Shown here in pieces: positions 2,862 to 29,568 of a DNA stretch of 29,636 nt (positions are counted from its first letter, which is position 1; every line of letters begins with the position of its first letter). The position numbers were made by a program, and so were the translations under genes. Below the pieces are notes generated by a model, which worked only from the letters and a program-made list of their open reading frames with translations, made no database searches and was not told where the DNA came from. The DNA is from a virus, in IMG/VR virus record IMGVR_UViG_3300031251_000082, positions 1 through 29,636 of that record; one strand, 5' to 3'.

Positions 2862-4823
2862 TCACTTAACTTTCTTCGGAAAATATTGATCGTGAAGTGC
2901 TTTAAATTCAGGATCAAAACAATGGGTTGACTTACTTAAATAATTTGCCATTAACGTACGAAGTCTTTTTTCTACAGGATCTTTAGAATGTCGGCTAGGT
3001 TTTTTACCTGATTTGAACCAGTCATTTATTAAGATTTGTTTTTTTGTCATTGAATTTTCAGGAAAATATTGATCGTGAAGTGCTTTAAAATCAGGATCAA
3101 AACAACTGCCTGATTTCCTTAAATAATTTGTCATTGACCTACAAAGTCTTTTTTCTACAGGATCTTTAGACAATTGGCTAGGTTTTTTACCTGATTTGAA
3201 CCAGTCATTTATTAATGTTTGTTTTTTTCCTTCTGTATCATAACTTCCTGTTTTTGTTTGAATTCCATCAAATAACATAAATGCGTTGATGTTTGTTTGA
3301 CTTGCAAAAGCATTTGACACCACGTACGCTGCAGTCACGATTGTAACCACTTTTTTGCTTGGTTCTTTAGGAAAGTTAAGGCTTGATTCCTCGTCAACTT
3401 TTTCTTCACTCTCCTCAAAAATCTGTTTAGTTTCGATGCTTCCACTCATGATTGGGCTGCCATCTGGGTCTTCAATAGTTTTCATGTCCCCAACCAAGTT
3501 CAGTACGTTTTTGGTCTGCGCAGCTATTGCATCGTCGAATGGAGCATCGACAGACAGAGCTGCTTCTTTAAATTGCTCAATTACTTCAGCATTAATGTCT
3601 TTCTTGACGCCTTTTTGGTCAATATAAAGACTTACTGTGTCTGGAATGTAATACCGGCCTAAACTCTTGCCCTCTGCAATTCTTAACAATCTGCCAGTCT
3701 TTTGCATAAATTGTCGCATGTTGTCGTATGAAGGCCGAAAGTCGAGCACTACCTCGAGTTCAGGGTAATCATAACCTTCTTTGGCCATGCCGCAGACGAT
3801 TAAAACTCTAAATTCATCTCGTTGAAACTTGGCTAATAGCTCTGCTGCTTCGAAATCATTGTCTTCTAGCCTGCTGTGGGCTATTTGAACAAAACCGTCT
3901 GGAACCTTACCAAAACGCTTAAGAAAGCGTTTACGCAGGTTTGACTGAAGGTTTGTTGCTGAAGTGGCATCCCCCTCAGCATCTACGCTGCTGGCAAACA
4001 CTAGGGTGGGAGGAATTGACTCAATTGACGTGGCTTCCTCATGAAAATAAGCTGCCAGTACGCTATTAGCTACCGACGTCTTAAGAATTTTGACGTTCAT
4101 AGGATCTTTTACATCAACTGCTTTGTTGATAATCTCGTCAGCCAATACCTCAGTATTACCCTTAACTTCTTCCGTCTTCTCGTCCTCGATGCGTTTAAGC
4201 TTGATGGTGTCTTCAGTTTGCACTGATTTAAACACGACATCACAGATGAATCCTAAGTCTTTAAGAGTTTGAAGCTGAGTAATGACAATCCTTGAAGATT
4301 TAAAAGTACCGTCTTTGTTCATCAAACCTTTAAACAATTCTTTATCTAGCTTCCAAGGAGTGGCGGATACATATAGTTGCGATTGAAAATGCTTGTTTTG
4401 TAACAACTTTTGAAACGTTTTGTGGTCAGTCTTCTGGTTAGCTGAACCCTGGTGAACTTCATCAACAATAAGCATGTCATATTTGGTGTTGTCAATCTTG
4501 TTTCTAGCAGACTGCCAAGTGATACAGTGAATGTAAACATCGTCTATAAGACCTATGTTGGGGTCTGAGGTCATTTGGATTCCCAACGCGTCAAAAGCTC
4601 TATCCATTGGCTGCTCAGATAGGTATTTTTGATGCGCCACCCAGAGCAAATGCTTATAGCCTTGGGCTTTTGCGTGGGCTATACCAATCATTAAGGAGGT
4701 GAGGGTTTTACCTGAGCCTGTTGGAGCTTGGTAAACCGCCCTCATGTCTTTAGGGTTATTCTTATAAATTGTTAAGATTTTGTCAAAAGCCTGTTGTTGA
4801 TAATCTCTAAGTTTAAAGTTCAT
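2862..4823 (-). CDS. SF2 DNA/RNA helicase with tandem C-terminal modules
   Basis: 653 residues. Helicase core: Walker A APTGSGKT (33-40), DEVH (121-124), SAT (153-155), motif V near KEGYDYP (348-354) and motif VI QKTGRLLR (374-381). This is the layout of the restriction-endonuclease/UvsW/SSL2-like branch of superfamily 2, which remodels branched DNA or translocates on duplex DNA. Two nearly identical 61-residue modules end the protein (about 532-592 and 593-653), each with INDWFKSGKKPS and DPVEKRL, resembling the helicase-associated domain repeats found in other helicases. Start chosen at ATG 4823 behind AGAGG; an upstream ATG spans the ribosome site. Driven by the promoter at 4844-4872. Likely works in replication or recombination. 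Confidence 0.9.
   Translation of the reverse strand: MNFKLRDYQQQAFDKILTIYKNNPKDMRAVYQAPTGSGKTLTSLMIGIAHAKAQGYKHLLWVAHQKYLSEQPMDRAFDALGIQMTSDPNIGLIDDVYIHCITWQSARNKIDNTKYDMLIVDEVHQGSANQKTDHKTFQKLLQNKHFQSQLYVSATPWKLDKELFKGLMNKDGTFKSSRIVITQLQTLKDLGFICDVVFKSVQTEDTIKLKRIEDEKTEEVKGNTEVLADEIINKAVDVKDPMNVKILKTSVANSVLAAYFHEEATSIESIPPTLVFASSVDAEGDATSATNLQSNLRKRFLKRFGKVPDGFVQIAHSRLEDNDFEAAELLAKFQRDEFRVLIVCGMAKEGYDYPELEVVLDFRPSYDNMRQFMQKTGRLLRIAEGKSLGRYYIPDTVSLYIDQKGVKKDINAEVIEQFKEAALSVDAPFDDAIAAQTKNVLNLVGDMKTIEDPDGSPIMSGSIETKQIFEESEEKVDEESSLNFPKEPSKKVVTIVTAAYVVSNAFASQTNINAFMLFDGIQTKTGSYDTEGKKQTLINDWFKSGKKPSQLSKDPVEKRLCRSMTNYLRKSGSCFDPDFKALHDQYFPENSMTKKQILINDWFKSGKKPSRHSKDPVEKRLRTLMANYLSKSTHCFDPEFKALHDQYFPKKVK
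2878..3231 (-). repeat. In-gene tandem duplication, period 183 bp
   Basis: The block beginning GGAAAATATTGATCG on the plus strand at 2878 recurs at 3061, exactly 183 bases (61 codons) later, with long stretches identical in DNA. The encoded modules share about four fifths of their residues over the core. The DNA-level similarity, including silent positions, points to a recent duplication. Confidence 0.85.
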
Positions 4824-4843
4824 AACTCTTACCTCTTGATTAA

Positions 4844-4872
4844 AGAATACCAAATCTATCTACTATTGTCAA
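4844..4872 (-). promoter_or_regulatory. Sigma70-type promoter of the helicase gene
   Basis: TTGACA (4872-4867), 17-base spacer, TATTCT (4849-4844), with TTAATCAAG directly after it as in the promoter at 1527-1555. The -35 box overlaps the stop codon of the gene ending at 4869. Confidence 0.75.
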
Positions 4873-5099
4873 GCTACAACTTCTGCATTATAAAACTTCA
4901 TCAAGTAATTTTGTTTATCTATCAAAGCTTGAGTCCTCCCGAATTCCTCCATCATATATTCCACAATAATGATTATAGGGCATCCAGTAGCCATTGCTAT
5001 AGCTGAAGCCTCTTTACATAGATCCGCATCAGGTTTCGTTATGAACCAGGCTTTTACTGCTGCTCTATTGATTTGATACCTAGATTTAGAGAGTTTCAT
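4869..5099 (-). CDS. Hypothetical small protein
   Basis: 76 residues, not recognised. The middle is rich in Ala, Met and Ile (ASAIAMATGCPIIIIVEYMMEEF) and probably helical; the pattern is too interrupted to claim a membrane span. The start at ATG 5099 has no visible Shine-Dalgarno sequence; instead TATTCT sits six bases upstream, which could be the -10 box of a leaderless transcript, although no -35 match is present. A TTGACA lies 110 bases further upstream. It is the first gene after the capsid terminator. Confidence 0.55.
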   Translation of the reverse strand: MKLSKSRYQINRAAVKAWFITKPDADLCKEASAIAMATGCPIIIIVEYMMEEFGRTQALIDKQNYLMKFYNAEVVA

Positions 5100-5189
5100 A
5101 CTTATAGAATATACTGGGTGGTTTAAAAATACTACTAAATCTCGACTAAAGGTTGATATTTGGGAACTTTAATAAACCGATACAATTGG

Positions 5190-5218
5190 ATATGAATAGA
5201 TATAGTTATAAATGTCAA
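5190..5218 (-). promoter_or_regulatory. Weak candidate promoter
   Basis: A perfect TTGACA (5218-5213) lies just after the capsid terminator in a gene-free stretch. The best hexamer 17 bases on is TCATAT (5195-5190), a poor -10 match. The -35 match and position are the only support, as a promoter is needed here for the gene at 5099. Confidence 0.3.
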
Positions 5219-5229
5219 TTTTAGTAAAA

Positions 5230-5254
5230 TTCCCCAATGTAAGCAACTGGGGAA
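5230..5254 (-). terminator. Second hairpin after the capsid gene
   Basis: A 7-bp stem, TTCCCCA (5254-5248 complement) with TGGGGAA (5236-5230 complement), loop of 11, followed on the minus strand by TTTTA. It is a weaker, tandem backup to the terminator at 5262-5292. Confidence 0.4.
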
Positions 5255-5261
5255 CCTAAAT

Positions 5262-5292
5262 AAAAAAGGCCTGAGATTTTTAGTCTCAGGCC
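5262..5292 (-). terminator. Strong intrinsic terminator of the head operon
   Basis: A perfect 9-bp GC-rich stem (GGCCTGAGA 5268-5276 with TCTCAGGCC 5284-5292, 7-base loop) is followed on the minus strand by six T residues (5267-5262). It lies 27 bases past the capsid stop codon and ends the packaging and head transcript. Confidence 0.9.
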
Positions 5293-5319
5293 TCAATATT
5301 TTAAGAGATAACTAGTTGA

Positions 5320-6603
5320 TTATGCTGATAATTGTACAACAGCATTCCACCCAGGGGCACTGCAAATGAGGTTACCATAGTAACCAATTCTGATTTCTAA
5401 TGCGTCAGCGTTTCCAACTCGGAGACCTTCAAGTCCTTCCATCCCGTAAGTGAGGATGTGAGGTACTTTTCCTAAGGATCTGAGTTTGAATGTAGACATG
5501 GTGAGTAAGTATGCAGTCTGAGGAGGGCAGCTTCTGTCAGCAAGAATGGTGACTCGGCCGTAAGCAGATTGAAAGGTAATCCCTTCGAAAGCTACTTCAA
5601 CTTCATCATGTTTTACTTGCACGTACTGAACTTTAGCTCCTAAGCTGTTCACAAGAGCAGCGTAAGAAGCGAAGTCCATGATACAGAGGTCAGGTTTTCC
5701 ACCTTCTCGGTTTAGAACTGCTAGAGCGTTGGTGATACCTTCTTCAATCGTTAACGATTGAGCATTGTATCTGATACCAGCTAAACGGGTCACGTCTGCT
5801 GATCGGTTAACACCCCAGAAACTGTCGCTGCTGGATGGAGCAGAGCTTGGAAGCCATGCTGCTAACCCTGACAATGCAAGGTTTGTTCCAGTTGCGATAG
5901 GTCCTGCAACGATGTCTCCGAATACTCCGAGTCCGTGTCCTGCTGCTGCCCATGAAGAGTCAGTAGCAGAAGCTAGAACGGTGATGATCCCGTTTGAACG
6001 GTCAACAGCTGTAATAGAAGCAGTTGAAGAGCTGATGGAGCTGATTGTTCCACCGCTGCTTACGAAGTTAACAAGAGTCATTCCAACTTCAAACTGAACG
6101 ATCTGTTGAGCGTTAGAAAGAGTGATGATGTAGGTAGGTGCAGATCCACTGTTTGTAGATCCGATATAACCACGTGTTGCTGATCCATCGCCGAATAATT
6201 CGAAAGCGATGTTGTTGGTGATCATTCTGAATCCACCGTCCATTTGCAGTTTAGCTGCATCGACGAAAGCTCCAGCGTTTGACTTAGTCTGTTCCATCAA
6301 CAAGTTGGTGATTGTGACTAATTGATAGTCTGAAATCACGTACACGAAGAAAGAAGCCAGCTGAGCTGCTGTCTGTTGGTTTTGAGCGTTAGAGAATGAG
6401 TGAGATCGTCCAGCAGGAACACCGAATTCGATGGGTACTGGAATGTATTTACCTGCGAACCCGTCTGGAGATTCGTTTTTAGGTACGAGAGCCAAGAAAG
6501 GGTTCTCTTTATAAACTAGATCCTTCATGTATTCTGAAGAATCGGTGTATAGCTCCTTAAGAGCTGCGATTTGGTTACTTGAACTTGCATATATTGCGGA
6601 CAT
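5320..6603 (-). CDS. Major capsid protein
   Basis: 427 residues. Assigned by position and character: it is last in the order terminase, portal, scaffold, capsid, has its own strong AAGGAAA ribosome site, and is followed by a strong terminator. The N-terminus is helical (IAALKELYTDSSEYMKDLVYKENPFLALVP), and the body has a Gly/Ser-rich surface-loop region near residues 145-245 and ends with the compact Gly-rich pattern seen in HK97-fold capsid proteins. The run 'YKENPFLALVPK' is a common start in phage capsid proteins with this order. It should form the icosahedral shell with the scaffold protein encoded just upstream. No protease gene sits nearby, so N-terminal cleavage is not indicated. Confidence 0.85.
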   Translation of the reverse strand: MSAIYASSSNQIAALKELYTDSSEYMKDLVYKENPFLALVPKNESPDGFAGKYIPVPIEFGVPAGRSHSFSNAQNQQTAAQLASFFVYVISDYQLVTITNLLMEQTKSNAGAFVDAAKLQMDGGFRMITNNIAFELFGDGSATRGYIGSTNSGSAPTYIITLSNAQQIVQFEVGMTLVNFVSSGGTISSISSSTASITAVDRSNGIITVLASATDSSWAAAGHGLGVFGDIVAGPIATGTNLALSGLAAWLPSSAPSSSDSFWGVNRSADVTRLAGIRYNAQSLTIEEGITNALAVLNREGGKPDLCIMDFASYAALVNSLGAKVQYVQVKHDEVEVAFEGITFQSAYGRVTILADRSCPPQTAYLLTMSTFKLRSLGKVPHILTYGMEGLEGLRVGNADALEIRIGYYGNLICSAPGWNAVVQLSA

Positions 6604-11014: not shown

Positions 11015-11251
11015 TTATTCTTGATCGTGTTCGATTTCGTCGTGAGGGGCGAGTTCTAAGAGGTCAAAAGCTGCTTGAAATGCTTTTGCCATCGCCTTGT
11101 AGTCTTTATGCTCGTGGGCGTTACAAAAGTCTTCCATGGCTATCTCTAAACCAGATAGTTCTTTATCCTCTGGTTTAGACTCATCTGGAGCCCTCATTTG
11201 AGTCATTACACCTGCGTCTTTAACTTGCTTATTCTTTAAAAATGGGAGCAT
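11015..11251 (-). CDS. Hypothetical head-operon protein
   Basis: 78 residues. The C-terminal half (about 35-70) has the heptad-like pattern of a short helical bundle (IAMEDFCNAHEHKDYKAMAK), ending in an acidic tail (HDEIEHDQE). GAGG lies before the start. Not recognised as a family. It is placed between the terminase and the repetitive acidic protein, so it is probably expressed late with the head genes. Confidence 0.6.
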   Translation of the reverse strand: MLPFLKNKQVKDAGVMTQMRAPDESKPEDKELSGLEIAMEDFCNAHEHKDYKAMAKAFQAAFDLLELAPHDEIEHDQE

Positions 11252-11305
11252 TAGAACCTCTAAACTTGTCTATTTGTCCTAAATTTTAACCTAAATCACA
11301 ACAAT

Positions 11306-12748
11306 TTAGTCGTTTTTCCACCAATTTTCAGCATCTGCTTGTTTTTGGAAGTGATCTACAGCTGAGTCAAACATATCAACTTCTTGCTGCTTAGCCCAGG
11401 CTTTAGAACCGTATTTAGGCTTTTCTGGTTCTTTTTGAAAGGTAAAGGCTGGAGATTCCCTAAAGGCATATAGTACCGCGTCTATAATGTCTGAGTGATA
11501 CTTGTCTGAAACTTTAATCTTATCTGATGTGGATTTATCCTGATCAATTTCAACAAGATAGGCATCTTGAGCAAATTTAGAGTTAGATTTAGCCTTAAAT
11601 TTACCGGTCCTTAGCGTATCATTTAAGAAAGCTATGTTTTCCATTTTACGGGCTTTATCTGCTGCTTCTACTGGTATGTGGTGTCGTCGTCGCATCTCTT
11701 CAGCGAGCTTCTTACCCAATCCACCTTGATCGATAACTAACTTATGAATATCATATTTATTTCTAAGCGATTGAATTTGTTCAACTAATTCTGTTAATCC
11801 TTGTTGAGGTACAACTTTTTCCTCTACGAGATACGTACTGGGGTCACCCTCGGACCATGCAATAATCGCAATAGCATCTGCGTCATCGAATCCTAAGTCA
11901 ATACCCATGATATAATTCCATTTATAAGGATGCTTAAGTTCCGGTAAATTGTTATAATTATTAATCTTTTCGTTGTATTTAAGTAAAAGAGAATCACTAT
12001 CTGTAACCCATCTACCAAAATACTCTCGTTGAATAGAGGGGTCGGTTACTGATACACCCCGGCGATTTAACTCTCTGTCTAACATCTGTTGGTGGGACAT
12101 CTTGGATTTATTCGTAATAAAGGGATTATTGAAGAATGTCCATTTATGCCTACTCCAATTAGAATTTTCTTGAGCACAATCATGGAAGTAACCTGTTGGT
12201 ATTGGACTTGGTGTCCCAATCAACACTAGGGTTCCTGCATAGTCCATAAGAGCCGGAGATAGCACGTCATTTATAAGTTCTCGAATATATTCTCGAAATG
12301 ATTGTGCTTCGTCGATATAAACAAGTTTTAAAGCAAGACCTCGGAACTTTTCGATTTCATTAGTGTCTTTAGCGCCAGATAGATAGATGATCGAATGATT
12401 AGGAAAGGTCATGGATAATTCAGAGAGGTTCTCTTCCCCCCCTAAATTATAATCTCGATTAATCTTTTTGATTTCTCTCCAAATGATTTTCTTGGCATTA
12501 TTTCTGCTCAACGTGATGTACAAACATACAACGCCGGGGTTCTTTAGAGCGGTGTCTATCAGGTCGGCAGAACAAGCTATGGTCTTACCAGACCGACGAG
12601 AACATACAGCTAACTTGTTGGGTGATGTATCCGTGATAAATGCATATTGTTCTGGAAACAAAAAGTCCTTTACAGAAAAGGCAGTGGATGCTATTTTCTT
12701 GCGTTTCTGTAGAGCTTTTCGAATAGCTTTCTCGGAAACTATACTCAT
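11306..12748 (-). CDS. terL: Terminase large subunit
   Basis: 480 residues, the ATP-driven DNA packaging motor. ATPase domain: Walker A-type CSRRSGKT (49-56), Walker B VYIDEA (143-148), and the coupling motif LVLIGTPS (175-181). Nuclease domain of the RNase H fold: IMGIDLGFDDADA with catalytic D284, then LVIDQGG (D340), and a final HSDIIDA near residue 420 as the third acidic site. All three acids are present, so it should cut concatemers and drive DNA into the portal. Start overlaps the upstream gene as ATGA. The final 50 residues are Lys-rich and may contact the portal. Confidence 0.96.
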   Translation of the reverse strand: MSIVSEKAIRKALQKRKKIASTAFSVKDFLFPEQYAFITDTSPNKLAVCSRRSGKTIACSADLIDTALKNPGVVCLYITLSRNNAKKIIWREIKKINRDYNLGGEENLSELSMTFPNHSIIYLSGAKDTNEIEKFRGLALKLVYIDEAQSFREYIRELINDVLSPALMDYAGTLVLIGTPSPIPTGYFHDCAQENSNWSRHKWTFFNNPFITNKSKMSHQQMLDRELNRRGVSVTDPSIQREYFGRWVTDSDSLLLKYNEKINNYNNLPELKHPYKWNYIMGIDLGFDDADAIAIIAWSEGDPSTYLVEEKVVPQQGLTELVEQIQSLRNKYDIHKLVIDQGGLGKKLAEEMRRRHHIPVEAADKARKMENIAFLNDTLRTGKFKAKSNSKFAQDAYLVEIDQDKSTSDKIKVSDKYHSDIIDAVLYAFRESPAFTFQKEPEKPKYGSKAWAKQQEVDMFDSAVDHFQKQADAENWWKND

Positions 12749-19218: not shown

Positions 19219-19539
19219 TTACTCCTTTGATTTATACCTGTCGTCCAGGTGTTTATGAGTCACTTCGTGTTCTAATAAGAACATAACACATGCTCCTAGA
19301 TGACTCAAGTGTGAAAGACCGGTTTCAGGGTCTTTATCTTCTCCGCCTATGAAGGCAAAAAGATGTCTTAATGCGGCGCCTAGAAGGCGACTCCACGCAA
19401 AACCTTTTCTCCAGTTATGAGCTTCATACTTAATACTACCAAAGGTTAAAACTTTAGCAATTTCAGTTAAAGCTATTGGACTTAATAATTCCATTCGAAC
19501 TTTTCCAGAATCATTTTTTATAGCGACTTTATGTTCCAT
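19219..19539 (-). CDS. dATP/dGTP diphosphohydrolase-like protein
   Basis: 106 residues. The pattern GKVRMELLSPIALTEIAKVL, FGSIKYEAHNWRKGFAWSRL, LRHLFAFIGGEDKDPETGL, HLSHLGACVMFLLEHE matches the dATP/dGTP diphosphohydrolase N-terminal family, helical MazG-like proteins that use metal-binding Glu and His residues. It should cleave a purine dNTP to the monophosphate and pyrophosphate, changing nucleotide pools. In phages with aminoadenine genomes such enzymes remove dATP or dGTP, but no PurZ or other enzyme of that pathway lies in the window. GAGAGG precedes the start. It is in one run with SSB and replication genes. Confidence 0.75.
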   Translation of the reverse strand: MEHKVAIKNDSGKVRMELLSPIALTEIAKVLTFGSIKYEAHNWRKGFAWSRLLGAALRHLFAFIGGEDKDPETGLSHLSHLGACVMFLLEHEVTHKHLDDRYKSKE

Positions 19540-19540
19540 A

Positions 19541-19777
19541 CTACACCTCTCTTATAATTCGTTTTGGGATAGAAATAATCCCGTAGTGACAGTATACAAA
19601 TTCGTCTCTATCTTTATCGTGAAACTTGTTAGCAATATGATCTGTGACGTGGGAGGGTAAATAATGAGAATCTATTGGTCGTACAAATGTTCCAGCAGGT
19701 AATGTTTTATCATTCCACATATTATCCACTAAAAACTTAAAATCTTCTGAAGTTACAAAATTTGGTGTTTTAGCCAT
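19541..19777 (-). CDS. Hypothetical protein
   Basis: 78 residues. Mixed alpha/beta, with a Pro/Gly stretch (LPAGTFVRPIDSHYLPSHV) and a compact C-terminus (YCHYGIISIPKRIIREV). No motif is recognised. Ribosome site GGGAGG. It overlaps the metallopeptidase gene upstream by eight bases and is two bases from the diphosphohydrolase gene downstream, so it is part of a single transcript. Confidence 0.6.
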   Translation of the reverse strand: MAKTPNFVTSEDFKFLVDNMWNDKTLPAGTFVRPIDSHYLPSHVTDHIANKFHDKDRDEFVYCHYGIISIPKRIIREV

Positions 19778-20195
19778 TTTTCCTCCCGGCTCTATATACC
19801 GCTAAGCTTTCCTTCTGCTCTTTAGCATACCACTTTCCTAAACTAATCTTCAAGTTTTTTGCGATTATTCTTCCGATTCTCCAAGCTGCTCGTTCTTCAG
19901 CTAGTACCTTTTTACGCTGAGACCTAGTGTCTCGTCCTTCGTACCATGCTGTATAAGCTCTAGATACATCTTCTTGATTTAATCGTTCTACCCGGTATTC
20001 ATCAACAGCGTGTCCTAATTCATGTAACATTGATGCTATTTCTGACTCAGGATCTAATTCATCATCTATTGTAATACTATTATTGTCTGGTCGATAGTAT
20101 GCTTCATACGATCCTAACCGCTTCCATGTTACCGAGATACCTAAAGCTTTAGCAAAGGCGAGAAGTCTTGAGATGTATAAATCATACTTTTTCAT
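19770..20195 (-). CDS. HExxH zinc metallopeptidase
   Basis: 141 residues from ATG 20195; a longer frame starts at TTG inside the transglycosylase gene and is less likely. The catalytic zinc motif is HELGH (H58, E59, H62), and a downstream LAEERAAW (E100/E101) fits the third ligand of the minigluzincin/IrrE-like type. Substrate unknown. Positioned directly behind the transglycosylase, it could be a peptidoglycan endopeptidase helping lysis, or an ImmA/IrrE-like protease that cleaves a repressor. No signal peptide is seen, so a cytoplasmic role or holin-dependent export is implied. Confidence 0.7.
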   Translation of the reverse strand: MKKYDLYISRLLAFAKALGISVTWKRLGSYEAYYRPDNNSITIDDELDPESEIASMLHELGHAVDEYRVERLNQEDVSRAYTAWYEGRDTRSQRKKVLAEERAAWRIGRIIAKNLKISLGKWYAKEQKESLAVYRAGRKNG

Positions 20196-20199
20196 ATAA

Positions 20200-20754
20200 T
20201 TAGAACCTATGGTCAATCTTATATCGAGCGTATTGTTTAAGAACTTTGCTTACATATTCGTCATTAGCTTTAGTAGGATGACCTGCATTATATGCAGATA
20301 TAACCTTCACTGTATCGCCGTATCTATCATATAAATGTCTTAAAAGCTTTGCTGCATACCAAGCATTAACTTCGGGTTTTAGGAGATCTTTAGTGTGGTT
20401 AATGGTTTTAACGATGGTACGGCTTTTACCGTGTCGTAAGGTGGTTACTTTAACCTTTTCTATTACTTCAAAGCCTAAACCTTGAGCTGTAGAAGCTTTA
20501 ATCTGGAACAACCCGTAGGATTTATCTATGATCCCTAAAGCCTTTTGAGCGGGGGTTCCATCATCGTGGTTGATAGCTTTAGCTCTACAATTTGATTCTA
20601 CTCGGCAGAAGGCGTAGAGTAAGGCAACGTCAATTTTAAACTTGGTAGCAGCATTATAGATGTGGAAAGGAACTGTAGTTGTGTCGCTTTCTACAGACTT
20701 TGAACTTACTATCGCTACTATTAAACTTATTACTAACGCAATTGTTTTATTCAT
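20200..20754 (-). CDS. Secreted SLT-type lytic transglycosylase (endolysin)
   Basis: 184 residues. N-terminal hydrophobic segment (residues 5-17) gives a signal peptide or signal anchor. Transglycosylase SLT domain: AFCRVESNCR with catalytic E53, KSYGLFQI (78-85), and the later YNAG-type motif (SAYNAGHPTK). It should cut the glycan strands of peptidoglycan, for host lysis or entry. An insertion between motif 1 and 2 (INHDDGTPAQKALGI) and a Lys/Arg-rich part (KVKVTTLRHGKSRT) extend the domain. No Shine-Dalgarno sequence is visible; the start codon lies six bases after the TACTAT box of the promoter at 20761-20789, so the mRNA may be leaderless. Confidence 0.88.
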   Translation of the reverse strand: MNKTIALVISLIVAIVSSKSVESDTTTVPFHIYNAATKFKIDVALLYAFCRVESNCRAKAINHDDGTPAQKALGIIDKSYGLFQIKASTAQGLGFEVIEKVKVTTLRHGKSRTIVKTINHTKDLLKPEVNAWYAAKLLRHLYDRYGDTVKVISAYNAGHPTKANDEYVSKVLKQYARYKIDHRF

Positions 20755-28344: not shown

Positions 28345-28782
28345 CTATTGCTCCAAGGATTTAGAACTTATTAAGTTTAATATTGAAGTTTCTTTAGAAG
28401 ATAGTTCGGCCATAATAGTCTTAATAGGCTTATTTAATAAAGGCCACATAGCAAGTCCCATATTAGACACTATTAATTCTAATGCTCTCTCTTCAGGAAC
28501 ACCAGTTGCGTATTTAAGGCGTTCAGTTTGAGATAACAAGCCATTACCATCAATACTAGATAAAACATCTAATAAACGAATACTGTTTACTAATTCATAT
28601 CCGCCGCCTGGACCTCGTATACTATTGAGTATATTACCTTTTCTTAGATTTCTGGCAACTTGGTATAGAAAACTTTCAGATAATCCAAGATTGGCAGCCG
28701 CAGTTTCTATGTTAGCTCGTCCCGCTCGAGCAATATACAGCGACAGTAATATGGCATACTGGGATTCTTTGGTTAATCTCAT
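28345..28782 (-). CDS. Rrf2-family transcription regulator
   Basis: 145 residues. MRLTKESQYAILLSLYIA and LGLSESFLYQVARNLRKG are the winged helix-turn-helix start, and SIRGPGGGYEL (54-64) is the hallmark wing of Rrf2/IscR proteins. After residue 64 the usual cysteine cluster for an iron-sulfur cluster is absent; the protein has no cysteine at all, so it should not sense iron-sulfur status in the IscR way. The dimerisation helix (residues 85-115) is present. Ribosome site AAGGAAA. Being early in the transcript from the right-end promoters, it could control phage genes or mimic a host regulator. Confidence 0.85.
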   Translation of the reverse strand: MRLTKESQYAILLSLYIARAGRANIETAAANLGLSESFLYQVARNLRKGNILNSIRGPGGGYELVNSIRLLDVLSSIDGNGLLSQTERLKYATGVPEERALELIVSNMGLAMWPLLNKPIKTIMAELSSKETSILNLISSKSLEQ

Positions 28783-28783
28783 A

Positions 28784-29134
28784 TTAAATAATTTCCTTAT
28801 TAACAGGGTTAGGGAATGGATTAATAATGCAATAATAATCCATCTTTTTACCTACAAATTGAATAAAAGCATCATCAAAAGCTTGAGCAATATTATCTTG
28901 TAGTTCATTTTTAAGCTCTAAGAAGTTAGCGTGTGTAATCTGATAAGCTTCCTCATCAGTTACATTTTTTCCGTATTTACGTAATAAGACATGTAGAATT
29001 ACTTTTTCAAGGTAGAATTTCAGAGATCTGCTGACGATTGGTATTGTAGGATCACTTCCTTCCTTCGGCAGACTCTTGATGATATTGAAAGTTTCAGCGG
29101 CAATTACTTTAGCTATTTCGTCAATTTCATTCAT
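28784..29134 (-). CDS. Hypothetical helical protein
   Basis: 116 residues, helical, with acid-basic alternation (MNEIDEIAKVIAAETFNIIK; HANFLELKNELQDNIAQAF) and two cysteine-free hydrophobic patches that do not reach membrane length. AAAAGGAAAT precedes the start. Not recognised; directly upstream of the Rrf2-type regulator, so they may be co-regulated. Confidence 0.6.
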   Translation of the reverse strand: MNEIDEIAKVIAAETFNIIKSLPKEGSDPTIPIVSRSLKFYLEKVILHVLLRKYGKNVTDEEAYQITHANFLELKNELQDNIAQAFDDAFIQFVGKKMDYYCIINPFPNPVNKEII

Positions 29135-29135
29135 T

Positions 29136-29258
29136 TTATTTCCTTTTCTTCTGTTGAAATCTATTAGCTATATAACCTAAAAATAAACTATAAGCTCTAT
29201 AGATAAAGGCAAAAACTAGGAGGGCATAGATTAAACCTATAACAATCGTTTCACTCAT
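29136..29258 (-). CDS. 40-residue single-pass membrane protein
   Basis: ATG 29258 with AGGAG eight bases upstream gives a 40-residue product (MSETIVIGLIYALLVFAFIY) with one membrane segment and a basic tail (RFQQKKRK). A longer frame upstream of this start would run through the terminator and promoter, so I reject it. First gene behind the promoter at 29275-29303. Confidence 0.65.
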   Translation of the reverse strand: MSETIVIGLIYALLVFAFIYRAYSLFLGYIANRFQQKKRK

Positions 29259-29274
29259 ATAATCTCCTATAAAT

Positions 29275-29303
29275 AGTGTATTAAGTATATATAGAAGAGT
29301 CAA
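29275..29303 (-). promoter_or_regulatory. Sigma70-type promoter
   Basis: TTGACT (29303-29298), 17-base spacer, TACACT (29280-29275). It directly follows the terminator at 29302-29361 and restarts transcription for the small early genes. Confidence 0.6.
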
Positions 29304-29361
29304 TATAAAAGAAGAAGGGCCTACAACTTTGATGTATCGACTGATACGTTGTAAGCCCTTC
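29302..29361 (-). terminator. Strong intrinsic terminator with an internal hairpin
   Basis: A 14-bp stem (GAAGGGCCTACAAC 29314-29327 with GTTGTAAGCCCTTC 29348-29361; one G-T pair on the minus-strand RNA) encloses a second hairpin, GTATC-GACT-GATAC (29334-29347). The minus strand continues TTCTTTTATATT. Confidence 0.75.
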
Positions 29362-29385
29362 GGGAGGTGGGAGTTATGAACTGAC
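29302..29385 (-). ncRNA. Predicted small RNA of about 84 nt
   Basis: The promoter at 29392-29420 predicts a start near 29385 and the terminator ends it near 29302. There is no start codon with a ribosome site inside. The 5' single-stranded part carries CCACCTCCC, including ACCTCC (29368-29363), just before the branched hairpin. It shares this feature and layout (promoter, short leader, strong terminator) with the predicted RNA at 53-152. Could be a leader with an attenuator instead. Confidence 0.4.
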
Positions 29386-29391
29386 AATTAC

Positions 29392-29420
29392 AGAATACAC
29401 GTATAACCTTAAAGAGTCAA
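29392..29420 (-). promoter_or_regulatory. Sigma70-type promoter with adjacent palindrome
   Basis: TTGACT (29420-29415), 17-base spacer, TATTCT (29397-29392). The palindrome AAGATT-A-AATCTT (29419-29431) begins two bases inside the -35 box, placing a possible operator at the upstream edge. Confidence 0.65.
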
Positions 29421-29431
29421 GATTAAATCTT
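29419..29431. promoter_or_regulatory. Candidate operator palindrome
   Basis: AAGATTAAATCTT has perfect six-base arms around one central base and touches the -35 box of the promoter at 29392-29420. Position is that of a regulator site; binding protein unknown. Confidence 0.4.
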
Positions 29432-29473: not shown

Positions 29474-29503
29474 TTGACTAAGTAACATAAAATTCGTTAG
29501 AAT
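29474..29503 (+). promoter_or_regulatory. Divergent plus-strand promoter
   Basis: TTGACT (29474-29479), 18-base spacer, TAGAAT (29498-29503, 5 of 6). It is the only promoter-like signal on the plus strand and faces out of the window. Confidence 0.4.
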
Positions 29504-29515
29504 TTTCGGGGTTTT

Positions 29516-29535
29516 AAAGGGGTGTTAACCCCTTT
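29516..29535 (+). terminator. Hairpin after the plus-strand promoter
   Basis: AAAGGGGT (29516-29523) pairs with ACCCCTTT (29528-29535) around GTTA. The plus strand continues ATTTAGTT, only a weak T-run, so this may be a leader hairpin or a weak terminator. It reads equally well from the minus strand, where no T-run follows. Confidence 0.35.
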
Positions 29536-29568
29536 ATTTAGTTAAGATGTAAGTAGTGAATTTGAATA

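Follow-up and report, generated by a model that had tools for sequence, protein, structure and literature searches.

The phage genome fragment analysed here (the window, a 29,636-nt record of IMG/VR) encodes a cysteine-free member of the Rrf2 family, which is probably a cluster-independent regulator that binds DNA and controls the phage's own promoters. The window also carries genes for terminase, portal and head proteins, a polymerase, a helicase, SbcCD-like and RecA-like proteins and endonuclease VII. The gene and those parts of its product that are relevant for the following are:

28345–28782, minus strand: gene for the Rrf2-family protein, 145 aa from an ATG start, free of cysteine; identified by PF02082, conservation and fold matches
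28639–28677, minus strand: recognition helix ESFLYQVARNLRK, residues 36–48; from the AlphaFold model, pLDDT about 90
28591–28617, minus strand: wing motif RGPGGGYEL, residues 56–64; RGPGGG is invariant in our alignment of Rrf2 proteins (A5)
28492–28542, minus strand: putative loop in place of the three-cysteine cluster loop, residues 81–97; from the columns of A5, with uncertain alignment
28435–28491, minus strand: hydrophobic helical segment at the place of the dimerisation helix, residues 98–116; from the Pfam coverage of the relatives, pLDDT about 50

The assignment of the N-terminal half to the Rrf2 DNA-binding domains, as made in the original prediction, is well supported. The Pfam model PF02082 matches residues 3–101 with 52.4 bits (cut-off 30, E 7.9e-14), and the corresponding proteins of all four relatives exceed this cut-off too, covering model positions 1–127 of 132. 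With the NCBIfam superfamily model TIGR00738 the score was 56.6 bits (E 2.4e-15) and stayed under the cut-off of 73.3; therefore, we regard the protein as a divergent Rrf2 protein and a clear homologue, and do not claim membership in the curated TIGR00738 set. Its top sequence match in the PDB is Escherichia coli IscR (E 1.3e-8, residues 1–80). The AlphaFold model, based on 65 sequences, reached a pLDDT of about 90 across the DNA-binding domain and of about 50 for the C-terminal half. IscR was also the first structural match of this model (Foldseek E 1.4e-6; VIA-align Z 14.0, 2.1 Å, 37% identity over 83 residues), followed by further IscR, CymR and RsrR structures. Sequence, model and fold matches agree on a winged helix-turn-helix with an RG-x-GGG wing, here RGPGGGY at residues 56–62.

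The window protein does not contain a single cysteine over its 145 aa, as originally stated, and the same is true for all five phage copies (the window and the related contigs L002–L005). The columns of IscR Cys92, Cys98 and Cys104 are occupied by Thr86, Val95 and Asn107 in A5, where the alignment is uncertain, and the position of Asn107 falls just beyond the replacement loop 81–97. In NsrR of Streptomyces coelicolor the fourth cluster ligand is Asp8, which is linked to Arg12 (PMC5411485); Gln8 and Leu12 take these positions in the phage proteins. Judged from the sequences, every known cluster ligand is absent from the phage Rrf2. The lack of cysteines as such, which had been considered unusual for the family, is already known from other members, since CymR is an Rrf2 protein without a cofactor (PMC5411485) and the closest full-length matches listed from Bdellovibrionota lack the cluster cysteines as well. 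Indeed, a large set of such Rrf2 proteins from Bdellovibrionota was among the matches listed (L160, L081 and others). These share with the phage proteins the loss of the cluster cysteines, but they have a YLEQ recognition helix in which the equivalent of IscR Glu43 is kept, and the tree does not join the phage copies to them.

A search with the RecA-like protein retrieved five related contigs. In four of them (L002–L005) the Rrf2 gene is found at the same place and with the same length, free of cysteine codons and with 58–61% identity of the products. Since L002, L003 and L004 are near-copies, there are three well-separated sequences overall (L002–L004, L005 and the window). Comparison of L003 with L005 gave a dN of 0.042–0.051 and a dS of 0.445, that is, a dN/dS of about 0.1 with both halves constrained; for residues 1–78 dN was 0.023. 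Between the window and its relatives synonymous sites are saturated. The replacement loop is kept across the family as ERL..A.GV.EER. Because a cysteine-free reading frame of the same length recurs in four other viral contigs and is under purifying selection, it must be more than a chance frame. These comparisons argue for a stable phage gene, kept intact in the relatives.

A recent capture of a host gene that is now decaying was named in the original prediction as a finding that would speak against it. We consider this extremely improbable in view of the five intact copies, their divergence and low dN/dS and the lack of a near cellular relative; not one supporting point was found. No close cellular relative of the window protein came up in a search of cellular genome contigs, where the matches listed reached at best 28–43% identity, mostly over the DNA-binding domain only, nor was a close gene present in 368 Bdellovibrionota genomes. 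The closest full-length cellular protein among the matches listed is L160 from Bdellovibrionota (35% over 127 aa), and the best match listed for the relative L003 is the NsrR-like L159 (45% over 67 aa). The phylogenetic analysis did not place the phage group among the Rrf2 proteins, as trees of both the full-length proteins and the DNA-binding domains left it on a long lone branch, and a grouping with NsrR received a p-AU of 0.41, which neither establishes nor rejects it. The Rrf2 matches listed had also suggested Bdellovibrionota as hosts. This assignment was not adopted: the porin of a relative matched only one of 240 Bdellovibrionota genomes, with 31% identity.

Rrf2 proteins had been described as not usual in phages. 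They are rare, but they recur. A search of IMG/VR with a single DNA pattern for RGPGGGY-x-L yielded 50 stretches; after removal of chance frames, 38 contigs with an Rrf2-like protein remained, of which 26 encode a cysteine-free one and only about four an intact cluster motif. Cysteine-free versions also exist in Citrobacter phage Chris1, where the gene is annotated as iron-sulfur cluster regulator and lies near cro, and in Klebsiella phage Kp4865-4; the version of Vibrio phage douglas 12A4 has three cysteines. Among the database matches labelled as phage, Listeria fragments, 500-kb Salmonella records and Acinetobacter contigs were left out of the count as likely bacterial DNA. The phage proteins from IMG/VR, Chris1 and Kp4865-4 resemble the one studied here in being phage-borne and mostly cysteine-free. 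They differ in that they are mostly shorter (86–129 aa), have no full dimerisation part, are not close in sequence and keep Glu43 in all those aligned. A separate family of 111-aa cysteine-free Rrf2-like proteins (beginning MKLTRKLEIGINAVNILK) was observed in six viral contigs of 45–177 kb (L034, L044, L047, L065, L069, L070). We found no description of a phage Rrf2 in the open-access literature searched, a scope which leaves aside most subscription journals.

Among the base-contacting residues of IscR, Glu43 distinguishes type 1 from type 2 sites, and the E. coli E43A variant binds type 1 sites in its cluster-free form (PMC5411485). At the equivalent position the window has Tyr40 and its relatives have His40, compared with Glu in 61 out of 61 other Rrf2 proteins of A5, other phage Rrf2 included; this sample was gathered via the RGPGGGY motif and is therefore biased towards that type. 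Other residues occur at this position in NsrR types, both in the sequences compared here and in the literature (PMC5411485). At the position of IscR Gln44 the window has Gln and the relatives have Lys, while RGPGGG stayed fixed. Altogether, the window protein departs from its own relatives at two of three base-contacting positions, and a site of its own for each phage fits this pattern better than a shared host site. For the same reason, we prefer control of the phage promoters to the other function originally proposed, the holding of host Rrf2 sites.

Such an action on the host would consist in a cluster-independent occupation of host operators, for instance of the NsrR or IscR type, by which iron-sulfur, NO or iron genes become fixed in one state. 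The recognition helix of the relatives, SKSFLHKVAHNL, does resemble that of NsrR types from Bdellovibrionota, SKNHLVKVVHNL, in agreement with the match of L003 to an NsrR-like protein, and the E43A variant illustrates that a cluster-free Rrf2 protein can occupy type 1 sites. Yet conserved host sites would disfavour the divergence at the base-contacting positions, unless the hosts differ, and cluster-free NsrR of S. coelicolor shows no high-affinity binding to its DNA (PMC5411485). We therefore regard an action on host operators as rather unlikely.

With E. coli IscR (PDB 4hf0, 4chu) the phage protein shares the winged helix-turn-helix, the RGPGGGY wing and the best fold match; it lacks the three cysteines and the equivalent of Glu43, is not encoded beside isc genes and scored 39 bits with the IscR equivalog model (cut-off 207.55). 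With NsrR (7b0c from S. coelicolor; the NsrR-like L183 and L188 from Bdellovibrionota) the shared features are the recognition helix L-x-K-V-x-H-N-L of the relatives and Tyr16 in helix 1. However, the three cysteines, the Asp8 ligand and Arg12 are missing and the wing is IscR-like rather than KGKGGG. Thus, the original label "Rrf2/IscR" holds for Rrf2 but not specifically for IscR, as the recognition helix of the relatives fits the NsrR type better.

CymR of Bacillus subtilis (2y75) is likewise cofactor-free and devoid of cluster cysteines. Similarity to it is low, with 29.7 bits in the CymR equivalog model (cut-off 195), and CymR is controlled via its partner CysK. The existence of cofactor-free members such as CymR (PMC5411485) nevertheless raises the question whether the phage protein senses something else, a protein partner or a small molecule, through loop 81–97 or the C-terminal helix. 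The conservation of the replacement loop would be in line with this, as would the selection on a full-length C-terminal part, compared with the mostly 86–129 aa of the phage Rrf2 from IMG/VR. Neither a ligand nor a partner is indicated, however, and given the low CymR score we consider a different sensor improbable. The dimerisation region lies within the conserved part, too, and Rrf2 proteins function as dimers, so that the protein might just poison host Rrf2 by forming inactive heterodimers with no productive DNA binding. But a pure poison would not need the wing and helix-turn-helix core, which are strongly selected (the dN for residues 1–78 given above), and this explanation appears very improbable to us.

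The genomic context points to the phage's own promoters. Rrf2 is the third gene of an operon that continues to the RecA, SbcCD and polymerase genes; this position and the adjoining non-coding control region fit the initial description of a location among early genes. Upstream of Rrf2 the following elements were found:

28784–29134, minus strand: operon gene directly preceding Rrf2, 116 aa, not assignable to a known family; conserved among the relatives
29136–29258, minus strand: small hydrophobic reading frame, first operon gene, with an internal ATG giving about 40 aa; the relatives lack it at this position
29275–29303, minus strand: predicted promoter P2, TTGACT-17-TACACT, ahead of the operon; TTGACT and the 17-nt spacing are kept in the relatives
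29314–29361, minus strand: conserved hairpin with a T-rich stretch behind it, just upstream of P2; from fold z and compensatory changes
29392–29420, minus strand: predicted promoter P1, TTGACT-17-TATTCT, ahead of the hairpin; recognisable in the relatives
29419–29431, no strand assigned: 13-bp palindrome AAGATTTAATCTT, candidate operator, overlapping the -35 element of P1; not above shuffled sequences

Two operons diverge from a non-coding stretch of about 0.7 kb in the relative L009, namely the Rrf2 operon and a leftward one (helicase, protease-like, lysozyme, an unknown gene and porin); in L010 this stretch measures about 0.5 kb. In the window the part matching this control region lies about 0.5 kb upstream of Rrf2 and extends to the contig end. 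Promoter-like matches overall are near chance (16 found, 13.7 expected), so that the support for P1 and P2 comes from their conservation. The palindrome at 29419–29431 does exist, as first reported, but its proposed link to Rrf2 finds no statistical support, as it is not above dinucleotide shuffles and its sequence is not conserved in the relatives. A search for operators by dyad symmetry gave nothing above dinucleotide shuffles in the control regions of the window, L009 and L010. Known sites of Rrf2 dimers span 23–26 bp and are longer than this 13-bp palindrome.

The hairpin has a fold z of -5.3 to -6.4 in three sequences, and two of its 19 pairs changed on both sides in a compensatory manner. 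It occurs in five other viral contigs; in four of them, all known members of this phage group, an Rrf2 gene follows downstream, and the fifth, a short contig, ends before it. No match was found in Rfam. We consider it a candidate terminator or small-RNA 3' end. The corresponding RNA candidate spans 29300–29386 (minus strand) in the window and 6273–6362 in L003. Its layout comprises P1, a segment of about 85 nt that includes a C-rich stretch, a stem of 13–14 bp and a U-rich tail. The C-rich stretch (CCACCUCCC or CCCUCCUC) is complementary to Shine-Dalgarno sequences, and the stem includes an invariant inner hairpin, GUAUC-ARUC-GAUAC. A further block of a G-run/C-run hairpin and a TTCTAACGAA hairpin is located at about 29488–29536 in the window and 9214–9269 in L009; by eye, it has opposite orientations in the window and the relatives, as if inverted.

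Several other genes deserve mention. At 4107–5384 (minus strand) L009 encodes an outer-membrane porin, a beta-barrel of the BBP2 type (PF07642, E 5e-35), which is adjoined by a trypsin-like lipoprotein and the lysozyme and might be a surface-altering phage gene. Directly downstream of Rrf2, L009 has a subtilase-like protease (11187–11879, plus strand; PF00082, E 6e-20), where the window has only small genes (26.7–28.3 kb). At 19219–19539 (minus strand) the window encodes the N-terminal domain of a dATP/dGTP diphosphohydrolase (PF18909, E 1e-33) beside replication genes, possibly with a role in the nucleotide pool or in base modification. An IrrE/ImmA-like metallopeptidase domain lies at 19770–20216 (minus strand; PF06114, 23.4 bits, cut-off 22); proteins of this kind cleave repressors in some mobile elements. 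The tRNA search found none.

Since the Rrf2 gene is beside the control region and no other recognisable transcription regulator, nor an integrase, was present among the phage proteins scanned, the regulator would most simply act there. For control of the phage's own promoters we envisage that the protein dimerises via its C-terminal helix and inserts the winged helix-turn-helix into DNA, with no need for a cofactor. Early in infection it would act on the promoters upstream of its operon, whereby its own leftward operon would be repressed or tuned, possibly together with the divergent operon seen in the layout of the relatives.

Rrf2 proteins have been studied as sensors. Tentatively, phages may have dismantled this sensor repeatedly into a constitutive regulator, and the lineage described here may in addition have rewritten the Glu43 gate, yielding a promoter switch whose specificity diverges between related phages as that of phage repressors does in immunity. 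The set of sensor-free phage Rrf2 proteins, with one lineage in which the specificity residue is changed, provides natural experiments on how this family functions without a cluster. A role at the phage's own promoters would put Rrf2 on the short list of folds that serve phages as transcription switches.
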